DNA from: Rhizobium sp. C4
Lineage (GTDB): Bacteria > Pseudomonadota > Alphaproteobacteria > Rhizobiales > Rhizobiaceae
Reading direction: 5' to 3'
DNA length: 64,000 nucleotides
Assembly (NCBI RefSeq): GCF_021026315.1
Contig: NZ_JAJNCX010000001.1
Coordinates: forward strand, 620,001-684,000
The position numbers and the translations under genes were made by a program. Under the pieces are notes generated by a model. It did no database searches. It had not been told where the DNA came from and worked only from the letters and a program-made list of their open reading frames with translations. Every line of letters starts with the position of its first letter. The first letter of the stretch is position 1. Positions 566 through 44,120 of this stretch are shown here, in pieces.

Positions 566-3472
566 TCAGGAAGAGGTATCGCCCGGCGCCTCCGCTGACA
601 ACCCGGTTTCTTGGCCGATTTCTGGGCCGCCTTCCTGGCCGGTCTCCGGCCCGTTTCCGACAGCCGGCTTTTCCATGGTCCGCAGCACCTTCTGATAGAA
701 GAGCCCGATGCCGATCAGCACCGCGCCGAGCCCGATGAATGAGGCTGCACGGAAGATGCCTTCGAGGTTCGACATGTCGATGAGGAAGACCTTGAGCACC
801 GAGGCGAAGACCAGCACGGCAGACGCCAGACGCAGGCTCTTCGCCTGGAAGCGCGAGCCGGCGACCAGCAGCCCGACACCAAGGATCAGCCAGACGACGG
901 AATAGGCATACATTTCGCCCTGTTCGAAGCCCTTCCAGTCAGCAAGCCCGGGCCCCTGCCACAGCCGGCGGACGGAAAGCGTCACCCAGGCAAAGGCCAT
1001 GACCGCGCCCCCGGCAGCAAGGCCGTAGACATAAGGCTCCGGCCGCTTGCCGCGCGCATAGTAAGCCAGCCCGAAATAACCGAGCGCCGGCAGGAGATAG
1101 CCGAGCAGCAGCAGGTTGAAGAAGGGCCATTCGCCGGTGAGCTCGCCGGTAAAGTAAGGGTTCAGCGTCATCAGATGCGCGAAGAGTGCCGACAGAAGCG
1201 AGATCGTGCCGACGATCATCGAGCCTGCCCTGAAGACCGGCGACGGGCTCTTCATGTCGAGCGTCATCAGCACGGCCGAACCGCCAACGGCGATCAGCGT
1301 ATAGATCGACTGTTCGCCGAGCGTCGGATCGTTGCCGGCCAGCGACCCGCCATTCAGCGCATGGCGCGTCAGGATCGCCACCGTCATCAGGCCGAGAAGG
1401 CTGGCGAGCGCCTGCAGGAAATTGCGCGCCCGGATCGAAGGTCCGTCCTTGATCATATAGGCGCCGAGACCGGCCAGCAGGGCCGGAATGCCATAGCCCG
1501 GCAGAAGCTGGTTGAAGAAGGGCGTCTTCGACAGCGTCATGTCGCCGACAAGGCTTGGTTGCCAGGCGATGCGGGCGAGCACGACAACGCCGGCAAGGCC
1601 CATCATCCAGGTGAGCGCCGGCCAGGGCTTGATGCGCGACGCCATGAGATAGGCGAAGCCGGCAACGGCGACGAGGATCGTTGTGACGACCGAATGCACC
1701 AGCGTGTGCAGCACCAGCACGACGCTCAGATAGGAGCCTGTGACGAGGCCGCCGATGACGGCATCGCGCCAGCGCATCCCGTCCATGCGCTTTTCCACCC
1801 AGACGGCGAGCGCGAGGAACAGAGCCGCATAGCCGATGCCGGTGCCGCCATGTTTCAGGTCGAATGTGAAATTGCCGAATTCGAGGAAGCTCAGCATGGC
1901 GAGCGTCAACGGCACGAACCACATGAGATGCGACCACATGACCGCATAGGCAGGCTGGCTACGACCATGGCGGTGAAGCGCCAGCACGCCAAGCGCGGCA
2001 AACGCGAGGCCCAGCCCGAGAAGCGGGCCGACAAGGCTGTCGCCGAGAATCGCAACCGGCGGCATCTCGCCGCTTGCCAGCAGGCCCATGCCGCTGAAGG
2101 CATCGCCCGTTGCGGCATTGAGGCTGCCGATGAGGGCAGCGACAAGCCCGCCCAGGGCAAAGAGAAGGCCGGAGGAGCGCCATGCGCCGACAGCCGCGAT
2201 CGACACGCACAGCACGCCAAATTCGATCATCTCCATGGTCGAAATGCCGTCGAGACCGCCAAAGACCATGAGCCCCGCTGCTGCGGCAAGCGCGGCCAAA
2301 ACGCCGGTGAAGCGCACCCAGCGATGCGGGACGCGCGGCAGCGCTTCCTCCCGCCAGACGCGGAAGGTCGAGGGCCTTGCCTGCGGGGCGCCAGCCGGAT
2401 CGGCGGGTGCCTGCTCGGCAAGGTCTTCTTCCGTCACTTGCGTCTCGCCATCGCCTGCGGGCCAGAGCAGCGCCAGACCCGCCATCATCGCGGCAACGGA
2501 AAGCACCATGGCCCAGACGCCGAAGGGCGGGACATGCGCCATGAAGAGGACGTACCAGAATAGCATTGCCGTATTCGCGAGCGCCGGCACGGCGTTCCAG
2601 CGGCGGATTCGCGCGGTCGCAATCGTCGCGAACCAGGCGATCGTCAGGTAGGCGAAGAGGCTCCAGGCATTGGGGTCATCGCTGCCGATCAGGGCCGGCG
2701 TGATCATGGCAGCAAGCAGGCCAAGGCCCGCCAGCGCCTGACCATGCAGGAGCGAAAGTCCGACCGTCACCAGTGCCACGATGGCCAGCAGAATGAAGGC
2801 CGTCGTCGGGCCGAGATAGTCATAGAACCCATAGGCCGCGTAGATCGCGCCGAAGAGCGTGACCGAGCCGGCCGCCGTCAGGGCACCGGGCACGAGAGCG
2901 TGCTTCAGCGCCGGCAGGTCGAGCGGGCTCTCGCGACGGCGCACCCATTCGCCAAGCGTCATCAGAACGAGGCCGAAAAGGGCTGCCATGGTGAGGCGCA
3001 CGGCGGGGCTGATCAGCCCCTGCTCGATCGAATATTTGACCATGAAAATGCCGCCGAGCGCCAGCGCCAGACCACCGACCCAGACGGGCCAGCGCGCGCC
3101 GATCATGCTTTCGAGGCTCTGCTGCGGCTTGGGCGCGGCGGGGATTGCTTTGGCGGCTGCGGCAGCGGCAGCGATAACGGCCGGCTCTTCGGAGACGGCA
3201 TCCTGCGGCGCATGAACGGCCATTTCGACCGGCTCGAAGGGCTTTTCCACATGCACCGGAGGGGCATCGACCGTGTAGGGCTCGGCGGGCATGTCCAGCG
3301 TTTCCAGGGGCCGCGGCATCTCTGGCTCGGCGACGACCGGAGTTGCAACGGCCGCCAGCGGACGAGCCTCAAGATCCCGCACCCGATTTTCCAGCTTGGA
3401 AATCCGCGTCTCCGCGCGCCGGAGCAGGACGATGGCGCCAAGCGCCAGAACGAGCGACAAAAATTCGAACAT
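566..3472 (-). CDS. DUF2339 polytopic membrane protein
   Basis: 968 residues. It opens with one hydrophobic segment (residues about 3-17), followed by a short heptad-like charged stretch (ETRISKLENRVRDLEA) and an Ala/Pro/Glu-rich linker to about residue 120. The rest is a long series of hydrophobic helices with short loops, roughly two dozen. This architecture is characteristic of DUF2339 inner-membrane proteins, whose role is not established. A soluble charged insert lies around residues 340-385. The stop lies just upstream of the HD-domain gene, suggesting a two-gene unit. No catalytic motif is visible. Confidence 0.85.
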   Translation of the reverse strand: MFEFLSLVLALGAIVLLRRAETRISKLENRVRDLEARPLAAVATPVVAEPEMPRPLETLDMPAEPYTVDAPPVHVEKPFEPVEMAVHAPQDAVSEEPAVIAAAAAAAKAIPAAPKPQQSLESMIGARWPVWVGGLALALGGIFMVKYSIEQGLISPAVRLTMAALFGLVLMTLGEWVRRRESPLDLPALKHALVPGALTAAGSVTLFGAIYAAYGFYDYLGPTTAFILLAIVALVTVGLSLLHGQALAGLGLLAAMITPALIGSDDPNAWSLFAYLTIAWFATIATARIRRWNAVPALANTAMLFWYVLFMAHVPPFGVWAMVLSVAAMMAGLALLWPAGDGETQVTEEDLAEQAPADPAGAPQARPSTFRVWREEALPRVPHRWVRFTGVLAALAAAAGLMVFGGLDGISTMEMIEFGVLCVSIAAVGAWRSSGLLFALGGLVAALIGSLNAATGDAFSGMGLLASGEMPPVAILGDSLVGPLLGLGLAFAALGVLALHRHGRSQPAYAVMWSHLMWFVPLTLAMLSFLEFGNFTFDLKHGGTGIGYAALFLALAVWVEKRMDGMRWRDAVIGGLVTGSYLSVVLVLHTLVHSVVTTILVAVAGFAYLMASRIKPWPALTWMMGLAGVVVLARIAWQPSLVGDMTLSKTPFFNQLLPGYGIPALLAGLGAYMIKDGPSIRARNFLQALASLLGLMTVAILTRHALNGGSLAGNDPTLGEQSIYTLIAVGGSAVLMTLDMKSPSPVFRAGSMIVGTISLLSALFAHLMTLNPYFTGELTGEWPFFNLLLLGYLLPALGYFGLAYYARGKRPEPYVYGLAAGGAVMAFAWVTLSVRRLWQGPGLADWKGFEQGEMYAYSVVWLILGVGLLVAGSRFQAKSLRLASAVLVFASVLKVFLIDMSNLEGIFRAASFIGLGAVLIGIGLFYQKVLRTMEKPAVGNGPETGQEGGPEIGQETGLSAEAPGDTSS

Positions 3473-3533
3473 CGGTATCCTCCGGGCGTCATGCCCGTTG
3501 CCGCCATCCTTTGGGGATGGGCCTGTTGCCTTC

Positions 3534-4025
3534 TTAGCGCATCAGGTTTGCGATTGGGAAGATGGCGCAGGTCTCCGTCCCATGCGCAAGCAATCTGCCA
3601 TTGCCGTCGCGGAGATAGCCTTCCGCCGTCGCCAGCGTCCGGCCACGGTGGAGAATGCGCGCCTCGCAGGCCACCTCGCCCATGCCGGCCGTCAGCGGGC
3701 GGACGATATTCACCTTGAATTCGGCGGTCGTGTAGCCCTCGCCGGGCTTCAGCATCGACATGACGACGCAGCCGAGCGCCGAATCAAGGATCGTCGCCGT
3801 CCAGCCGCCATGCACCGCGCCCATCGGGTTGAGGTGATCGGCGGTGGGCACGCCGCGAAACTCGATCTGCCCTTCCTCCACCGCCGACAGTCTGAAATTC
3901 AGCACCCGGGCTATGGGGGCTGCCGGAAACTCTCCGGAGAGAATTTTCTGCAGCGTCTCCAGTCCGCTCAGCTTTGCCACTTCGGCCATGAGCATGGGCG
4001 CGAAGGCGCGTTCAGGCTCGGTCAT
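3534..4025 (-). CDS. PaaI-type hotdog thioesterase
   Basis: 163 residues from the ATG that overlaps the recO stop by four bases (ATGA). The segment [22 protein letters not shown] matches the hotdog-fold acyl-CoA thioesterase signature (N-P-x-G-x-x-H-G-G plus a downstream acidic residue), and [10 protein letters not shown] and [18 protein letters not shown] fit later strands of the fold. The family hydrolyses acyl- or aryl-CoA thioesters; the substrate here cannot be read from sequence. An in-frame extension upstream is rejected because it runs through recO in another frame. The overlap implies translational coupling to recO. Confidence 0.85.
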
Positions 4026-5574: not shown

Positions 5575-5693
5575 GCATCCTTCGAGGCCGCCCGGCGGGC
5601 GGCACCTCAGGATGAGGGTGGAGCAAGCGGCACGCCACCAATCTCCCCCCTTGCGGGGGAGATGTCACGAAGTGACAGAGGGGGGTGTGGCGA
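5575..5693. repeat. Composite repeat unit (type A + spacer + type B), copy 1
   Basis: Type A (5575-5620) contains CCTTCGAGGCCGCCC, a GGGCGGC return arm and CACCTCAGGATGAGGGTG. A 13-base spacer GAGCAAGCGGCAC follows, then type B (5639-5693) with the hairpin CTCCCCCCTTGCGGGGGAG and a second hairpin GTCACGAAGTGAC. The same order recurs about 130 bases further on. Confidence 0.8.
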
Positions 5694-5704: not shown

Positions 5705-5822
5705 CGATCCTTCGAGGCCGCCCTGTGGGCGGCACCTCAGGATGAGGGTGGAGCAAGCGGCACGAGGCCAATCTCCCCCCTTGCGGGGGAGATGCCAGCG
5801 AAGCTGACAGAGGTGGGTGCCA
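5705..5822. repeat. Composite repeat unit (type A + spacer + type B), copy 2
   Basis: Nearly the same as the unit at 5575-5693: type A at 5705-5750, the same GAGCAAGCGGCAC spacer, then type B at 5769-5822. The second hairpin of type B is altered (CAGCGAAGCTG instead of GTCACGAAGTGAC), with compensating changes on both arms, so the structure is kept while the sequence changes. Confidence 0.8.
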
Positions 5823-9002: not shown

Positions 9003-11327
9003 CTACTTGCGGCGCATGGCCTCCGCGAGTTTGGCGGCCAGCGCGCCCTGCCCTTGCGCTTCCTGCTTCGGCGCGGCACTCATCGGGCGGTTGCCGGGGC
9101 GGGCATTGCGGTCGTCGCGCGGGGCGGGCCTGGCGTCACGCTCGCCGCCGCCATCCTTGCGCATGGTCAGCCCGATGCGCTTGCGCTTCACATCCACTTC
9201 CGTCACCCGCACCTTGACGACATCGCCGACCTTCACGACCTCGTTCGGGTCCTTCACGAAACGGTCGGCGAGCTGCGAGACATGGACGAGGCCGTCCTGA
9301 TGCACGCCGATATCGACGAAGGCGCCGAAGGCGGCGACATTCGTCACCGTGCCTTCGAGCAGCATGCCGACCTTGAGGTCGCTCATCTCCTCGACGCCAT
9401 CGGCGAAGGTCGCGGTCTTGAATTCCGGGCGCGGGTCGCGGCCGGGCTTCTCAAGCTCAGCAAGGATGTCCTTGACGGTGGGCAGGCCGAAACGCTCGTC
9501 GACGAAGAGCTTCGGATCGAGCTTCTTCAGCGCGGCACTGTCGCCCATCAGGGCGCGCAGGTCACGGCCGCAGGCGGCAACAATCTTCTTGGCGACGCCA
9601 TAGGCTTCAGGGTGAACGGACGAGGCATCCAACGGCTCGTCGGCACCGGGGATGCGCAGGAAGCCGGCGCATTGCTCGAAGGTGCGCTGGCCGAGACGGG
9701 AGACCTTCAGCAGCTCCTTGCGGCTTCTGAACGCGCCGACCTCGTTGCGATGAAGCACGATGGCTTCGGCAATCGACGGCCCGAGGCCCGACACGCGGGC
9801 AAGCAGCGGCACGGAGGCGGTGTTCAAGTCAACGCCGACGGCATTCACGGCGTCTTCAACGACAGCATCCAGCGAGCGGGCAAGCCGCGACTGGTCGACA
9901 TCGTGCTGATACTGCCCGACGCCGATGGACTTGGGCTCGATCTTGACGAGTTCGGCGAGCGGGTCCTGCAGGCGGCGGGCGATGGAGACGGCGCCGCGCA
10001 GCGACACGTCGAGTTCCGGGAATTCCTTCGCCGCCGTCTCGGAGGCCGAATAGACGGAGGCGCCGGCCTCCGAGACAACGACCTTCTGGGGCTTGGCGCC
10101 TTGCAACGTATTGATGACTTCGGCGGCGAGCTTCTCGGTCTCGCGGCTGGCCGTGCCGTTGCCGATGGCGATGAGCTCGATCTTGTGCTTGCGGATGAGG
10201 CTGGCCAGCGTCGCCATCGCGCCGGTAATGTCGTTCCTCGGCTGGAACGGATAGACGGTCGCGGTCTCCAGGAGCTTGCCGGTGGCGTCGACTGCGGCGA
10301 CCTTGACGCCGGTGCGGATGCCGGGATCGAGGCCGAGCGTTGCCTTGCCGCCGGCGGGGGCTGCGAGCAGCAGATCCTTGAGATTGCGGGCGAAGACGCG
10401 GATCGCCTCTTCCTCGGCGCGTTCGCGCAGGTCCCGCATCAGGTCGAGCGAGAGCGACGAGGAGAGCTTGACGCGCCAGCACCAGCCGGCAACCTCCATC
10501 AGCCATTGATCGGCGGGGCCGCTCGAACCGATGCCGAATTCGTTGGCGATCATGCGGTGGGCGGGCTTCACCGGCGACGTGTCGTCAGCATCGACATCGA
10601 TGGAAAGCGTCAGCACTTCCTCGTTCCAGCCGCGCAGCATGGCAAGCGCCCGGTGCGAGGGGACATTGGTCCAGCGCTCATCATGGGTGAAATAGTCGGA
10701 GAACTTGGCGCCCGCCTCTTCCTTGCCGGTGACGACACGGGCCCGCAGGAAGGACTTCTCCTTCATGTGATTGCGCAAACGCCCGACAAGGGCGGCATTC
10801 TCGCTCATCGTCTCGGCGACGATATCACGTGCGCCTTCGAGCGCCGCCTTCGCATCCGGCACGTCATCCTTGATGTAGCTGGCGGCGAGCGCCTGCGGGT
10901 CGGCGCGGCGGTCGGCCCAGATGGCATCGGCCAGCGGCTGGAGACCGCGTTCGCGGGCGATCTCGGCCTTGGTGCGGCGCTTGGGCTTGTAGGGGAGATA
11001 GATGTCTTCCAGCTCGGCCTTCGTCGTCGCCTTGGCGAGCGAGGCGGCCAGAGCATCCGTCATCTTGCCCTGCGAGGTGATCGAGTCGGCAATCGAGGCG
11101 CGGCGGGCTTCCATCTCGCGCAAGTAAGTCAGCCGTTCGGCAAGATTGCGCAGCTGGGTGTCATCGAGGCCGCCGGTCACTTCCTTGCGGTAGCGGGCGA
11201 TGAAGGGAACCGTTGCACCCTCATCCAGCAGACCGACGGCGGCCTTCACCTGATCCGGCCGGGCATTGATCTCGGCAGCGATGACGAGGGCGATACGGGC
11301 GGCAACCTGAGCTTCGACTTGCGACAT
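9003..11327 (-). CDS. tex: Tex family RNA-binding transcription accessory protein
   Basis: 774 residues, the usual size for Tex. N-terminal helical domain with the signature [23 protein letters not shown]; YqgF/RNase H-like core starting [16 protein letters not shown]; helix-hairpin-helix segments ([20 protein letters not shown]); a C-terminal S1 domain ([28 protein letters not shown]); then an Arg/Gly/Asp-rich tail. Tex binds nucleic acid through S1 and influences transcription. The start at 11327 follows AGGAAG. It is convergent with the gene at 8536. Confidence 0.95.
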
Positions 11328-32084: not shown

Positions 32085-33110
32085 TTAGAAATTGCGCTCA
32101 AAGCGGAGGAAACCGCCGGAAGACTTGTTCTTGTCGTAACGTGCTTCGAGAAGCACGTCGAAGCCCGTTGCGACGTTGTAACCAACGTTGCCAACAACGA
32201 GCCAGTACTTCGGCTTGAAGGCATAGGAGTAGTCAACAGCGGCGAAGAACTTCGGCGTGATGTTGACGCGGCCGGCAGCCGTCAGAACGAAGCCGTCGAG
32301 GCCAGCGCCGGCAAGCGTCGTCGGAGCATAGGCGCTCGTCGTCTTGCTGGTGTAGATGCCGAGCAACTTCAGCTGGACCGGGTCGATTGTTGCAGAAACA
32401 TAACCCTTAGCGCCCCACGACTTGTCAGCGATGTCGTAGTTGAAGCCGAGTGCGCCTTCGTAGTTGCCAAACGTGCCCTTGACGCCCGCATTCAGGCCAG
32501 CCGTCTTGCCTGCGGTGTTGGTCATGTCATCGACGGATGCCAGGTATGAGAAGCTTCCAACCTTGCCCTGAACTGCAGCATAGGATGCAGCACGGTAGTC
32601 ATAGAGACCGCCCCAATCCGTCAGACCGCCGTAGTTGAAGAAACGAACCCAAGCTGTTTCGTAGTTACCGACCTCGAAACCAACCGACCCAGCGTCAATG
32701 CCGGCATAAAAGAACGCAGTGTACTGATTACCGCCAGTAGCCTGGGTCGCAGCAAATCCACGCACCTGAAGCCAAGAATATACGGTACCGATTTCGGAAT
32801 TGTTCTTCGCATCCACAGTCAAGCGGAACTGGCTGCCAGCTGCGGCAGAGCTCGTCCACTTATATGCTGCATTGCTGGTGGTGCCAATCGCCGGATTATT
32901 ACCGTACGTCAGATCCCAGCGGACCATTCCACCGACCTTAAGGCAGGTCTCGGTGCCGGGGATATAAAAATAGCCGGTGCCGAATGCGTCGCAAACTTTG
33001 ACGTATTCCATCGGTTCCGGAGCAGCGGCAACGATTGCGTCAGCTGCGTTTGCGCCAGATACAGCTGCGAGAGCCGCAGCGGAGCCGAGAAGAAGGCCCT
33101 TAATTTTCAT
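32085..33110 (-). CDS. Porin, RopA/Omp2b-like (copy 1)
   Basis: 341 residues. A signal peptide ([22 protein letters not shown]) leads into [36 protein letters not shown] and then beta-rich sequence ending [22 protein letters not shown]. The terminal aromatic Phe, alternating strands and the two N-terminal cysteines are those of rhizobial 16-stranded porins, which form trimeric diffusion channels in the outer membrane. It has its own terminator. Copies 2 and 3 follow upstream on the same strand. Confidence 0.93.
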
Positions 33111-33236
33111 GATATCCCCTCTTAAGGTTGGTTGATGGTTATTGAATTAACTTATTCGAATAGGCGTTGCAACCTTGTCCAACTTCCAACGCAAAACTGT
33201 CACAAAATAAACGAAGCAGGTGCAACATTTATGCAA

Positions 33237-33262
33237 CTAGGGGCCGCTTGCGCGACCCCTAG
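33237..33262 (-). terminator. Terminator of porin 2
   Basis: Stem CTAGGGGTCGC / GCGGCCCCTAG (11 pairs, one G-U) with a GCAA tetraloop, 14 bases past the stop. The T-run after it is weak. Confidence 0.65.
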
Positions 33263-33276
33263 GTAGTCTCGTTCGA

Positions 33277-34284
33277 TTAGAACGAACGCTCGAAGCGAAG
33301 GAAGCCCGAAGACACCTTCGTGCTGGTGTAGCCACCTTCAACCAGGACCGCGAAGCCATTGGCAACGTTCCAGCCCAGATCGCCTACGACGTTCCAGGTC
33401 TTCGGCTTGAAGGAGTAGGAGTAGTCAACTGCCGCGAAGAGCTTCGGCGTGATGTCAACCTTGCCGCCAGCGATCAGCGTGAAGCCAGCCGCCGGTGCAT
33501 AAACGTTTCCAGCCTTGGCAGCATAGATGCCCATCAGCTTCAGGCTGACGATATCGAACTTGCCGGAGACATAGCCCTTCATGCCGTAGGACTTGGCAGC
33601 GATGTCGTAATCAGCGCCGAGAGCCGCTTCAATGTTGTCAAACGTGCCCTTGACGGCGGCGTTCAGACCAGCAGTCTTGCCTGCAACGTTCGTGAAATCG
33701 TCAACGCCGGCGGTATAGGAGATGTTGCCAACCTTGCCGTAGAACGCCGCGTAGGAATTGATGTTTTCAGCATAGGAGCCACCGTTGTCGGTGAAGCCGC
33801 CGAAGCCGAAGAAGCGGGTCCAGTAGTTGTCGTAGTAACCAACTTCGAAGCCATAGGCGCCGCCATCGATACCGGCATTGAAGTAGGCAACATTGCCAGC
33901 ATTGATACCGGTGCCCGCAGGCACGCCAGCATAACCGCGAATCTGAAGGAACGAGTAGACGGTACCAACTTCAGAATCGTTCTTTGCGTTGACGTTCAGG
34001 CGGTACTGAGAGCTCGAGTAGGACGACCACTTGTAGCCCGGATTGCCGCTTGCTGCGCCGAAGAGCGGAGCGTTGGAGTAGTTCAGCTGTCCACGAACGA
34101 GACCGCCGATCTTAAGGCAAGTTTCAGTGCCGGGAATGTAGAAATAGCCGGTACCGAATGCGTCGCAGACCTTGACATATTCCATTGGCTCAGGAGCAGC
34201 CGCTACAATCGCGTCAGCAGCTTGTGCGCCGGAAACAACCGCAAAAGCAGCAGCCGTCCCGAGGAGGAGACCCTTGATATTCAT
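33277..34284 (-). CDS. Porin, RopA/Omp2b-like (copy 2)
   Basis: 335 residues from ATG 34284 ([22 protein letters not shown], signal peptide). The first 60 or so residues are almost the same as the other two porins, and the closing strands ([23 protein letters not shown]) share the C-terminal pattern. Loops differ strongly, for example [20 protein letters not shown] against copy 1. An upstream ATG at 34323 would add 13 residues before the signal peptide and is not chosen. Confidence 0.93.
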
Positions 34285-34435
34285 CTGAATGACCCTATTC
34301 AAAAGAGTGTTAGGTAACATCAACGATCCGCAGCTAGGCGGCCTTCGTCAATGTTCTGGAGAGTGTGCCGCACGCATACAAAGTGCTGCGATCGTCTTTT
34401 TGCCGGCCAGCTTTGCGCCATCCCGGATATGAAAT

Positions 34436-34459
34436 GGAGGCCTGGCAAGCCAGACCTCC
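34436..34459 (-). terminator. Terminator of porin 3
   Basis: GGAGGTCTGG-CTTG-CCAGGCCTCC (10 pairs, one G-U) on the minus strand, 19 bases after the stop, followed by ATTTCATAT. Confidence 0.65.
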
Positions 34460-34478
34460 ACAGAAAAACCCTTGCGGA

Positions 34479-35462
34479 TTAGAAGCTGCGCTGGAAGCGA
34501 ACGTTGCCGAACACAGCCTTGTTGGAGCTGGTGTAGCCAACTTCAGGACGGACCATGAAGCCGTTAGCAACGTTCCATTCAACGCCACCTGCAACCTGGT
34601 AGGTCTTCGGCGTGAATTCGTAGCTGTAGCGGGCATAGGCAGCCAGATTCGAAGTCAGCTGAGCCTTAGCTGCCGTGTAGAGCGTAAAGCCCTTGGCCGG
34701 AGCATAAGCGTTGCTTGCGTTGGAAGCATAGATGCCCTGAACCTTGAGGGTGATCGGGTCAAACTTAGCTTCAACAAAACCCTTGGCGCCAAACGACTTG
34801 GCAGCGATGTCGTAGTTGATCGCAGCGCCGACACCAACGGTACCGAACGTAGCCTTCACACCACCGTTCAGGCCAGCCGTCTTGCCAGCCGTGTTGGTGA
34901 AGTCGTCAACGCTTGCAAAGTAGGATACATTGCCTGCCTTGCCGTAGAATGCGGCGTAGGAGCTGCCAACATAACCGTAGTCGCCGTTGTTGTTGCCGTA
35001 GCCGCCGAAGCCAGTCCACTGCGACCAGTAGCTATCGCCGTAGCCGACTTCAAAGCCAGCTGCACCAGCATCGATACCAGCCTTAAAGAGAGCCGAGTAG
35101 GTGCCGTTAGCCGAGCCGCGGATTTCGAGCCACGAATAGACAGTGCCGATTTCGGTGCTGTTCCTAGCTTCAGCATCGAGGAAGAGACGCGTGTCACCGT
35201 TGTAGGACGACCAACGATAAGCCGGGTTTGCGGTCGATACGCCACCGATCGAGCTGTACTGCAGCTGGTAACGAACGCCGCCCGAGATCTTCAGGCAGGT
35301 TTCGGTGCCGGGGATGTAGAAGTAGCCCGTGCCGAAAGCGTCGCAAACCTTGACGTATTCCATGGGTTCCGGAGCGGCGGCGACGATTGCGTCAGCGGCC
35401 TGTGCGCCGGATACAACTGCGAAGGCAGTTGCGGAGCCGAGAAGAAGGCTCTTGATGTTCAT
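34479..35462 (-). CDS. Porin, RopA/Omp2b-like (copy 3)
   Basis: 327 residues. Signal peptide [22 protein letters not shown], then the shared [19 protein letters not shown] segment and the final PEVGYTSSNKAVFGNVRFQRSF. It is the shortest and most diverged of the three in the surface loops (for example GFGGYGNNNGDYGYVG). Each porin has its own upstream region of about 170-200 bases and its own hairpin downstream, so they are probably expressed separately. Confidence 0.93.
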   Translation of the reverse strand: MNIKSLLLGSATAFAVVSGAQAADAIVAAAPEPMEYVKVCDAFGTGYFYIPGTETCLKISGGVRYQLQYSSIGGVSTANPAYRWSSYNGDTRLFLDAEARNSTEIGTVYSWLEIRGSANGTYSALFKAGIDAGAAGFEVGYGDSYWSQWTGFGGYGNNNGDYGYVGSSYAAFYGKAGNVSYFASVDDFTNTAGKTAGLNGGVKATFGTVGVGAAINYDIAAKSFGAKGFVEAKFDPITLKVQGIYASNASNAYAPAKGFTLYTAAKAQLTSNLAAYARYSYEFTPKTYQVAGGVEWNVANGFMVRPEVGYTSSNKAVFGNVRFQRSF

Positions 35463-41240: not shown

Positions 41241-41858
41241 ATGCCGATTACCCGTCGCAGCCTTCTCCTCGGCCTTTCTGCAGCTCTTGCCGGCTGCACC
41301 ACGCAATATTCGCAGCAGGCTGCGAATTATGGTCCGAAGCCGCAGGAAGAGCATCCGCTGCCGGGCATGCCGCTCGACAAGATCAAGCCGGAACTGCGCC
41401 GCACGGAAGTCGACTATCCCTCGAGCGAGAAGCCCGGCACGGTGATCGTCGATACGCCGGCCCGCCGGCTCTACTACATCCTCGGCAACAACAAGGCGAT
41501 CCGCTACGCCGTCAGCGTCGGCCGCGAAGGCCTGCAGCTGCGCGGCAACGCCTATGTGGGCCGCAAGGCCGAATGGCCGAGCTGGACACCGACCGCCAAC
41601 ATGATCAAGCGCGATCCGGGCAAATATGCCAAGCTTGCGGGCGGCATGACGGGCGGCCCGAACAATCCGCTCGGCGCCCGCGCGCTCTATCTCTATCGCG
41701 GCGGCAACGACCTGCATTTCCGCATCCACGGCACGAACCAGCCGGAATCGATCGGTTACGCCATGTCGTCCGGCTGCATCCGCATGCTGAACTATGACGT
41801 CATCGACCTTTACGACCGCGTCCCGACCGGTACGAAGGTCATCGTTTTGCAGGCTTGA
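41241..41858 (+). CDS. L,D-transpeptidase (ErfK/YbiS type), exported
   Basis: 205 residues. Twin-arginine-like or lipoprotein start (MPITRRSLLLGLSAALAGC, with a lipobox-like LAGC). The YkuD domain contains FRIHGTNQPESIGYAMSSGCIRMLN with the catalytic Cys in S-G-C-I-R. It forms 3-3 cross-links in peptidoglycan or anchors proteins to it. The final codons read V-L-Q-A-stop. A second copy of the last 36 bases of the gene lies at 43112 with an alternative ending (V-L-Q-E-G-stop), so the original 3' end may have been displaced. Confidence 0.9.
   Translation: MPITRRSLLLGLSAALAGCTTQYSQQAANYGPKPQEEHPLPGMPLDKIKPELRRTEVDYPSSEKPGTVIVDTPARRLYYILGNNKAIRYAVSVGREGLQLRGNAYVGRKAEWPSWTPTANMIKRDPGKYAKLAGGMTGGPNNPLGARALYLYRGGNDLHFRIHGTNQPESIGYAMSSGCIRMLNYDVIDLYDRVPTGTKVIVLQA
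41818..41853 (+). repeat. Direct repeat, left copy, inside the L,D-transpeptidase end
   Basis: 36 bases coding V-P-T-G-T-K-V-I-V-L-Q. It matches 43112-43147 at 34 of 36 positions. Both differences are synonymous third-codon changes (GTC/GTG and GGT/GGC), and the copies lie 1294 bases apart. This fits attachment-site or target duplication. Confidence 0.9.
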
Positions 41859-41938
41859 ATTAACCCTCTTGCGTCGATGCCGCTCCAGAACTGCACCGCT
41901 TAACGTTATGTTTAGGTGCCACAGTCAAAACACAATTA

Positions 41939-43108
41939 ATGAGTGTATCTGTGGCGCTAGGCATGACGGGCAAATTTACGAACAGACTGCAGGCTGTCAT
42001 TCTCTATGACGGAGGGAATGACATATCCGCTTCAGCGATGTTGCGCTCATATTGCGATACAGCACAGAAAATGGGCCAGCCATTCCGGATTGCAAATCCA
42101 TCAATGATGATGGGGCCGAATGATCTGTCCGTATTGGTGAGTTACTCACCACATCAGGCCGATATGTCCAAGTTTGGAAATGCTTTGAAGTCCGTGTGGA
42201 ACTTTGAGCTATCCCACCAATTGGAAGCGCGCGTGCAGCGACATCGTAGCCACATGGTGATCGATGTTTTCCACGGTTTGCACGGCATCGTATCCGACAA
42301 ACCCGAGATAGCTGAATTTCTGACCAAGATAAATGTGGGGAAGCCCGGTCATTCGCTGCGCGACTTCCAACAACGCGCAGGGCTTCTCGCTCAAATTGCC
42401 ACACATTTCCAACATCTTCATCCCGGAAGCGCCATCCACTGGACGCAGAGTGATTCACTTCACGAGGCTGGAAAATTTTCAACGATATTGGCCGATGGAC
42501 AGCTTCTTCCCCTTACCGTGCAACCACTTATTTGTCGCGCGACGGGTACGCCCAAACACCGCGATGACTCAATTGCGGTGCTGACAAGAGGTGCCGCAGA
42601 TTACGTTGGACGAGAAATCTTTGTTCCGCCCGCGCCGATTCCTTGGTTAGAACGCTACTTTGCTGCTCTTGCCTTCGTTGACGTTGCGAACCTGCAGAAC
42701 GGCTACATTATTCCACACGAAAGCATGTTTTCGATAGCGGATGGAGAATTTTCTTATCTCGTTCAGCACCTCGACGGAGGCGTCTCCGCAGCGCCAACCG
42801 TTGCGCCGGTTTACAGTCTTGAACTCATCTTCCACAAAAAATATGGATATGTGAACCCGCGTAACAAAAACGTTGATATTGCCGCCGCCACGTTGGGGGA
42901 TGCGGTAGATCGGACAGATAGAAGTCAGGCAGAAAAGGAAGAATTTCCAGCAACGCAGGTGAAGCCGGAAAAGAGCTTGACTCGAAATGACGGAAAGCTG
43001 GAAGCCCGTTCCTCAAGCAACCACGAGCCCACAAGACAAAAACCAAGCTCAGTCCACCGCAATGTCGTTCCGTTCGGTCGTCGCACAACGCTCGAGAAAA
43101 AAGACTAA
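41939..43108 (+). CDS. Unrecognised islet protein
   Basis: 389 residues from ATG 41939, or 381 from ATG 41963; neither has a good ribosome site. I do not recognise the family. Visible are a hydrophobic opening strand (LQAVILYDGG), a middle region with HRSHMVIDVFHGLHG, a segment GAADYVGREIFVPPAP, and a charged, low-complexity C-terminus (about 300-389) rich in Lys, Arg and Ser. The ordered part vaguely recalls DUF4261-like proteins, which I cannot confirm. There is no signal peptide or membrane helix. Base composition is lower than its neighbours, suggesting transfer. Confidence 0.6.
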   Translation: MSVSVALGMTGKFTNRLQAVILYDGGNDISASAMLRSYCDTAQKMGQPFRIANPSMMMGPNDLSVLVSYSPHQADMSKFGNALKSVWNFELSHQLEARVQRHRSHMVIDVFHGLHGIVSDKPEIAEFLTKINVGKPGHSLRDFQQRAGLLAQIATHFQHLHPGSAIHWTQSDSLHEAGKFSTILADGQLLPLTVQPLICRATGTPKHRDDSIAVLTRGAADYVGREIFVPPAPIPWLERYFAALAFVDVANLQNGYIIPHESMFSIADGEFSYLVQHLDGGVSAAPTVAPVYSLELIFHKKYGYVNPRNKNVDIAAATLGDAVDRTDRSQAEKEEFPATQVKPEKSLTRNDGKLEARSSSNHEPTRQKPSSVHRNVVPFGRRTTLEKKD

Positions 43109-43111
43109 TAA

Positions 43112-43147
43112 GCGTGCCGACCGGCACGAAGGTCATCGTTTTGCAGG
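43112..43147 (+). repeat. Direct repeat, right copy
   Basis: The second copy of the transpeptidase 3' end, continuing GAAGGCTAA, which would close the original gene as Q-E-G-stop. It lies just after the islet gene. Confidence 0.9.
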
Positions 43148-43163
43148 AAGGCTAACCACCGTT

Positions 43164-44054
43164 TCAGGCTGAGGGCGCAGTCTTGACCGGGGCGCGCCCT
43201 CCCCGCTGACCGAGCAGGATGCTGGCAAAGATCAGCGCCATGCCGGCCCATTGGTAGGGCGTCAGCATTTCGTTGCGGAAGATCAGGCCGAGCGTGACGG
43301 CGGCAACGGGGCTCAGGAAGGCCAGTTGCGAGACGCGGTTGGGATCGAGCTTCGCGATCCCGCGGAACCAGAGCGCATAGGTCAGCCCCGCGCCGATGAA
43401 GCTCAGATAGGCGACCGCCGCGAGATTGGTCGCATTCAGCGCCAGCAGATCATGGACATGCAGGAAGACGACTGGCAGCAGAAGAATGCCGCCGGCGCTC
43501 AATTGCCATGCGGTGAAGGTGAGCAGCGGAACCGGCGGCTGCCAGCGGCGCGTCAGCACGGTGCCGAAGGCCATGGAGAGAGCGCCGAAGAGGCCAGCCG
43601 CGACACCGACCGGATCGAGTGCGGCTCCCGGCTTGAGAATCAGGATCGCCACGCCGAGAGCGCCGCCCAGGGCTGCGAGCACGGAGACGGTGCGGATCGG
43701 CGTGCCGACCAGCGCGCGGGCGAGGAAGACGATGATGAAGGGCTGGACCGCCCCGACGGTCGCCGCCACGCCGCCCGGCAGGCGATAGGCCGTCACGAAG
43801 AGCATCCACCAGAAGAATGAGAAGTTGAGCGCGCCGAGGATGAAGGCCCGGAGCCACCAGATGCCTGTCGGCAATTGCCGCGTCAGCGCCAGCAGCAGGA
43901 TGCCGGCCGGCAGTGCCCGCAGCGCCGAGACGAGGAGCGGATCGAGCCCCGGCAGGAAGGTTGTCGTGACGATATAGGTGCTGCCCCAGATGAGAGGTGC
44001 TAGCGCGGTCAGCAGGATATCGGAAAGGGCGACGGCGGGCATGGGAGCCTCCAT
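43164..44054 (-). CDS. EamA/DMT family exporter
   Basis: 296 residues with ten hydrophobic segments in two EamA halves (LAPLIWGSTYIVTT at the start of the first, AYLSFIGAGLTYALWFRG in the second). Members export small metabolites through the inner membrane. The start may be MEAP (44054) or MPAV (44042); if 44054, the ATG borders the operator. It is divergent from the MarR gene and very likely controlled by it. Confidence 0.88.
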   Translation of the reverse strand: MEAPMPAVALSDILLTALAPLIWGSTYIVTTTFLPGLDPLLVSALRALPAGILLLALTRQLPTGIWWLRAFILGALNFSFFWWMLFVTAYRLPGGVAATVGAVQPFIIVFLARALVGTPIRTVSVLAALGGALGVAILILKPGAALDPVGVAAGLFGALSMAFGTVLTRRWQPPVPLLTFTAWQLSAGGILLLPVVFLHVHDLLALNATNLAAVAYLSFIGAGLTYALWFRGIAKLDPNRVSQLAFLSPVAAVTLGLIFRNEMLTPYQWAGMALIFASILLGQRGGRAPVKTAPSA

Positions 44055-44100
44055 TTATCTTGACCTCAAGATAAATGGATAAATCTTGACGTCAAGATAA
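44055..44100. promoter_or_regulatory. Twin MarR operators between exporter and regulator genes
   Basis: Two palindromes: TTATCTTGACCTCAAGATAA (44055-44074, one central mismatch) and ATCTTGACGTCAAGAT (44083-44098, perfect). Both share the CTTGAC-TCAAG core. They fill the divergent promoter. Confidence 0.85.
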
Positions 44101-44120
44101 ATTCATGGTGACGTTTTGCC

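Follow-up and report, generated by a model that had tools for sequence, protein, structure and literature searches.

Organization of the locus

The window, a stretch of 64,000 nucleotides from Rhizobium sp. C4 (contig NZ_JAJNCX010000001.1, positions 620,001 to 684,000), contains an L,D-transpeptidase (LDT) gene that is followed by a single gene, a second copy of the LDT gene end, and an exporter gene (Table 1). The 36-bp stretch at the LDT end recurs 1294 bp downstream with an identity of 34/36, and the two mismatches, GTC/GTG (Val) and GGT/GGC (Gly), are both synonymous in the LDT reading frame, which is preserved in both copies. The repeat is thus as an initial sequence-only reading had described it, with one correction: the left copy does lie at the LDT end, but it does not comprise quite the last 36 coding bases, as the repeat stops one base into the final sense codon and the gene runs on to GCT-TGA. 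Throughout the genome (5.2 Mb), a 34-base repeat pattern with up to three mismatches is found at these two places only. Comparison of one flank with the other gave a best repeat score of 28 at the islet as opposed to 13 or less in six shuffles, and the repeat pair is therefore not a product of chance.

Table 1. Features around the 3′ end of the LDT gene (positions in the window)
Feature	Position	Strand	Remarks
L,D-transpeptidase (LDT) gene, YkuD domain; putative insertion target	41241..41858	+	Pfam PF03734, E 4e-24; orthologue in 6/6 genus genomes
Left repeat copy, attL-like, within the LDT gene	41818..41853	+	34/36 match to right copy; two genome sites only
CTTGA, LDT end past the left repeat, giving Gln-Ala-stop	41854..41858	+	Identical five bases after CAGG in G002
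Unique insert, 1258 bp	41854..43111	.	Lowest G+C in the window among sampled same-length stretches; absent in 5/5 congeners
Islet gene, 381 aa, diverged DUF4261-like, with C-terminal linker and PFGRR tail	41963..43108	+	ATG at 41963; ORF from 41939 would encode 389 aa
Right repeat copy, attR-like	43112..43147	+	Three differences from G001 and G004, as against five for the left copy
AAGGCTAA, rest of the resident LDT end (Glu-Gly-stop) past the right copy	43148..43155	+	Aligns with GAA...GGCTAA of G003
EamA/DMT exporter gene, right neighbour in the islet-free arrangement	43164..44054	-	Pfam PF00892; directly after LDT in G003 and G002

A single intact gene without a Pfam match resides between the repeats, and neither ORF nor Pfam inspection of positions 41854–43111 revealed a recombinase or integrase remnant. 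The insert has a G+C content of 50.6% compared to 61.7% for the window, and no stretch of the same length, sampled at 50-base steps, is as low; third-position G+C amounts to 52% in the islet gene as against 81% in the LDT gene. These values agree with the original description of one gene of lower G+C and no recombinase. One extra TAA is all that separates the stop codon of the islet gene from the right repeat copy. A decayed tandem LDT gene was considered as the source of this second copy and rejected, since the bases preceding the right copy include no LDT sequence; the copy starts three bases past the islet stop. Within the right copy (43113–43128), a 6-pair inverted repeat, CGTGCC/GGCACG, is broken by the two differences of the left copy; it scored as a terminator-like site of the minus strand, at a level that chance alone would give. 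Promoter and terminator scans were unremarkable (2 and 1 sites versus 1.0 and 2.8 expected, respectively), the leader of the islet gene folded no better than shuffled sequences, and a search for RNA elements returned a single weak snoRNA match, below the cut-off and outside the insert. The 109-base leader gave two chance-level matches only (E 0.76 and 0.90) elsewhere in the six genus genomes.

Several other features of the window were recorded. Three tandem porin genes (Porin_2) with stretches 65–81% alike occupy 32085–35462 on the minus strand, and a 91-bp repeat, 93% identical, is found at 5577–5667 and 5707–5797, with starts 130 bases apart. ARAGORN reported a 93-base tRNA-Ala with anticodon AGC at 10551–10643, possibly a false prediction given its unusual length and anticodon. 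Palindromic, operator-like 20-base repeats lie between the DMT exporter gene and a MarR regulator gene (44053–44102); a matching stretch is present in all five congener loci, as expected for a MarR-controlled exporter.

Two ends of one gene

The right copy continues in the LDT frame as ...Val-Leu-Gln-Glu-Gly-stop (GAA-GGC-TAA), after which the DMT gene follows. In the four nearest congeners the LDT protein ends in Gln-Glu-Pro-Gln-..., and the gene of G003 terminates in GAA-CCG-CAG-GTC-GGC-TAA. Judged by this alignment with the resident clade, it is the right copy that retains the resident LDT gene end, as had been supposed from its natural Q-E-G-stop. The left copy continues to Gln-Ala-stop, an ending shared by G002, G008, and G021. 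Among five LDT genes outside the clade, three end in Gln-Ala-stop, G014 ends otherwise, and G033 was not read in frame. Because the left tail equals the Gln-Ala-stop of other LDT genes, the insert seems to have given the LDT gene another natural end, in keeping with the replacement end first proposed; by a rough estimate, a random tail would produce Gln-Ala-stop about once in a hundred cases. The left-copy end (CTTGA) was thus probably supplied by the insert.

Features of the repeat core speak against a foreign origin of this stretch. The copies differ from each other at two sites and from the congeners at three to eight, and both contain GTTTTG, which is missing in all five congeners. Given that each copy resembles the other more than it does any congener, the core may stem from a donor of the same lineage, may be constrained by recombination, or may be the species' own end in duplicate.

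Gain of a gene at the LDT 3′ junction

An LDT orthologue is present in all six genus genomes examined, while the islet gene occurs in the window genome alone: both the gene and the second repeat copy are missing from each of the five sampled congeners. Carriage of the gene by all relatives had been named as the observation that would speak against an insertion, and none of the five carries it. The DMT exporter gene directly follows the LDT gene in two congeners, with convergent ends overlapping by 4 bases in G003 and a 65-base gap in G002. These islet-free sites bear out the claim that a gene was gained at the LDT 3′ end. The expectation that relatives would have the LDT gene directly before the DMT gene holds for these two and fails for G001, G004, and G005, in which a SulP-type transporter gene (Pfam-confirmed for G001) comes after LDT. 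No second repeat copy was detected by blastn at the SulP junction of these three genomes. In the respective loci L007, L008, and L006, the SulP gene lies at 2158 to 3573 or 3576, with the LDT gene turned forward in L006 and L008. On the available sequences, the junction appears to have taken up a gene at least once, perhaps twice, with repeats in the window case only, and it could represent a minor hotspot at which genes are gained or lost. The locus tree of the genus is star-like, with low support (38–65%), so that the order of events is read from gene absence. Overall, the sequence comparison makes the islet look like a real, small, acquired insertion.

The islet gene and its protein family

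Position 41963 is the likelier start of the islet gene, since three aligned homologues open with M-[TI]-G-[KR]. The reading frame is open, and positions conserved in the family are kept. The protein has no match in Pfam, PADLOC, PHROGs, or NCBIfam. Profile searches found family members in at least 10 of 397 genomes of the order and at least 18 of 388 genomes of the family (the window's own included), these counts being lower bounds, since only a few candidates were scored in each genome. Among named genomes, which partly overlap with those sets, a scan yielded eight relatives with 29–35% identity in Aminobacter (three), Agrobacterium (three), and uncultured Erythrobacter (two). The nearest homologues found thus belong to other genera and are at most 35% identical, and the family, as sampled, appears patchy and alphaproteobacterial.

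A distant kinship with DUF4261 (PF14080) emerged from profile comparison. Weak matches to this domain, all in the same region, were obtained for three of 24 members (13.1–16.3 bits against a cut-off of 27); at Pfam's gathering cut-off of 27 bits, the islet protein itself gave no match. When the 24-member family (alignment A2, consisting of the window protein and 23 relatives, with L079 left out and L096 shortened by the chosen start) was compared with a profile of PF14080 matches from other genomes, the probability reached 98.3% (E 1.2e-14, 248 columns); the latter profile comprised four of five matches, the below-cut-off L113 being left out. Values of 96.5% and 85.5% were obtained with the best single PF14080 protein and with a 4-member profile, respectively, and a single negative control, the LDT protein, gave 0.5%. 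The islet protein would accordingly be best described, on these profiles, as a diverged relative of DUF4261 rather than a member by Pfam's criterion. PF14080 was found in none of the six genus genomes and in none of 14 control genomes. In the excerpts of the literature searched, DUF4261 appears as a bare mention in a table of predicted traits, with no functional evidence.

Profile and structure checks had been recommended from the outset; the former disclosed the kinship with DUF4261, whereas fold searches were uninformative. The predicted structure features a folded part of approximately 300 residues, with pLDDT below 50 from residue 303 onward and a whole-model mean of 61.6. Foldseek returned no match at E ≤ 0.001 against the PDB and one against viral proteins (E 9e-4), whose TM-score of about 0.1 makes it uninformative. 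No catalytic motif was seen in the islet protein. A short motif, FG[RK][RK] or WG[RK][RK], lies within the last 20 residues of 17 of the 24 members and is entirely absent from their other 8341 residues. This distribution suggests that the FG[RK][RK] end serves as a docking tail for a partner. In all likelihood, the cargo acts as an accessory protein in the cytosol and is composed of a DUF4261-like fold, a flexible linker, and a tail that docks on a partner.

Other roles for the cargo were considered and abandoned. A defence or immunity function, which had been entertained initially, found no support: searches of PADLOC, PHROG, and NCBIfam gave no match for the window protein, and the 24 members have none in NCBIfam or PADLOC. 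Phage or plasmid cargo was rejected, as no copy was found in phages or plasmids. A link to type VI secretion, suggested by the sizes of neighbouring genes, was dropped once these neighbours turned out to be cobalamin genes. Neighbour genes at the homologue loci were called by a crude ORF method, and the neighbourhoods vary between groups. CobO-like genes lie no more than five genes away in 10 of the 24 loci and CobN-like genes in eight, with CobN and CobO Pfam-confirmed in L072 only; one or the other occurs within five genes at 12 loci (L071–L073, L075, L077–L080, and L093–L096). This proximity may reflect a link to cobalamin or shared ancestry. No CobN-sized ORF is present within about 4 kb of the islet gene. 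In three Agrobacterium loci (L100–L102), the gene at +3, approximately 3 kb downstream of the family gene, encodes a large protein, which we take to resemble a HerA-type ATPase; the genes in between presumably resemble ilvH and ilvI.

Use of the site in other genomes

The sequence-only reading had proposed a search for other cargo between the same repeats; neither recurrent use of the site nor a matching site in viral contigs or plasmids was observed. A degenerate pattern of the LDT end matched 7 of 388 family genomes, of which the window genome alone had two copies; since its reach extended to just 2 of 109 genera, this negative result carries little weight outside the genus. A stricter pattern matched 5 of 394 genomes, two copies again being confined to the window genome. 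Viral contigs contained no exact att match, and blastn against plasmids revealed no att site. LDT genes are present in four phage records (38–45% identity) and are different from the insertion site. No functional attL/attR-type element of the same specificity and no relic of a recombination gene were found in the genome, the family genomes, viral contigs, or plasmids with these short-reach patterns. As paired repeats occur in no other searched genome, site-specific mobility is conjectural.

At the 24 homologue loci, flanking repeats were likewise not detected, with best scores of 8–14 at the level of the loci's own shuffles; the cargo family is therefore not itself mobile in a repeat-flanked manner. 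The genome harbors nine Phage_integrase (PF00589) matches, all outside the window's contig, so that a recombinase acting in trans is conceivable.

Origin of the islet

We favor, with a probability of about 0.5, a scenario in which a circle, or an end-matched fragment, carrying the cargo together with an LDT end recombined at the 3′ end of the resident LDT gene. The incoming DNA would have consisted of one DUF4261-like gene and the last ~41 bases of an LDT gene. One Campbell-type crossover inside the 36-bp match would then yield the LDT gene with its new end, the insert, and the old end, leaving the LDT protein whole with Gln-Ala-stop in place of Glu-Gly-stop. The agent would most likely be a tyrosine recombinase, either provided in trans or once encoded by a larger element of which it and the other parts have disappeared, and the product a CIME-like islet of attL, cargo, and attR. 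The circular intermediate, the recombinase, and the decay are presumed steps; that an integrase was the agent, by analogy to insertion at tRNA genes, is likewise a conjecture of the sequence-only reading that we retain as such.

A repeat–insert–repeat arrangement would equally result from a single crossover at 36-bp homology by RecA-type homologous or homology-facilitated recombination, in which the LDT end of a relative, along with the cargo, crossed over through the short shared end without any site-specific enzyme. The resemblance of the copies to each other rather than to any sampled congener is what a same-lineage donor would leave. However, 36 bp is a very short homology for RecA, and the donor arrangement was not seen, such repeats being found at 0/24 homologue loci; we consider this route unlikely, if a serious contender. 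Distinctly unlikely, in our view, is an insertional duplication, whereby a captured gene filled a staggered break, or entered by template switching, at the LDT end and 36 bp of the resident end were duplicated. Although the shared GTTTTG fits a copy of the species' own end, the left tail would then coincide with the natural Gln-Ala-stop of other LDT genes at the roughly 1-in-100 odds given above, and usual target-site duplications are shorter than 36 bp.

That the gene is ancestral and was lost in other species, the repeat being a relic, draws on the star-like locus tree, which leaves the order of events to gene absence. All five congeners lack both the gene and the second repeat copy, the insert is low in G+C, and no homologue above 35% identity was found, the nearest ones belonging to other genera, all of which makes such a history highly improbable. 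Recombination of a circle or end-matched fragment remains our preferred reading. Its extension to a one-gene mobile unit, which would use the LDT 3′ end as an attachment site, borrow a recombinase in trans, and carry a DUF4261-like protein acting through an FG[RK][RK] docking tail, seems improbable.

The islet illustrates that even a very small insertion at the end of a protein gene, with no integrase of its own, can restore a whole gene, and it points to a cell-wall enzyme gene as a possible insertion target. Through its cargo, a patchily distributed alphaproteobacterial family comes into view, whose strongly conserved C-terminal tail offers a handle for finding the partner.

Comparison with known systems

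The titles and abstract openings covered by a targeted literature search reported no LDT gene as an attachment site. A CIME (cis-mobilizable element) is described as an integrated element that has decayed but retains attL and attR (PMC5704250). Like a CIME, the islet is bordered on either side by direct repeats that include the target-gene end and, in line with that definition, encodes nothing for integration or transfer between them. Unlike a CIME, it comprises one gene in 1.3 kb, its mobility is presumed, and a search for a related ICE or IME sharing its core found none. As far as sequence goes, this arrangement is consistent with a very small CIME-like islet that lacks an integrase.

SGI1 and dusA-type islands encode their own integrase. 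The islet resembles them in targeting the 3′ end of a protein gene, and differs in having no integrase between its repeats and a cell-wall enzyme gene as its target. SGI1 is placed at the 3′ end of trmE and its relatives at dusA (PMC8409611), and for rhizobia, integration from core to core has been described at a tRNA gene (PMC8627217). With respect to DUF4261, the islet-protein family aligns by profile over 248 columns; in contrast to that family, the islet protein has no Pfam match, and its family adds a linker and the FG[RK][RK] tail. Taken together, the islet is ordinary in kind and unusual in size and target, and it carries a member of an interesting protein family.
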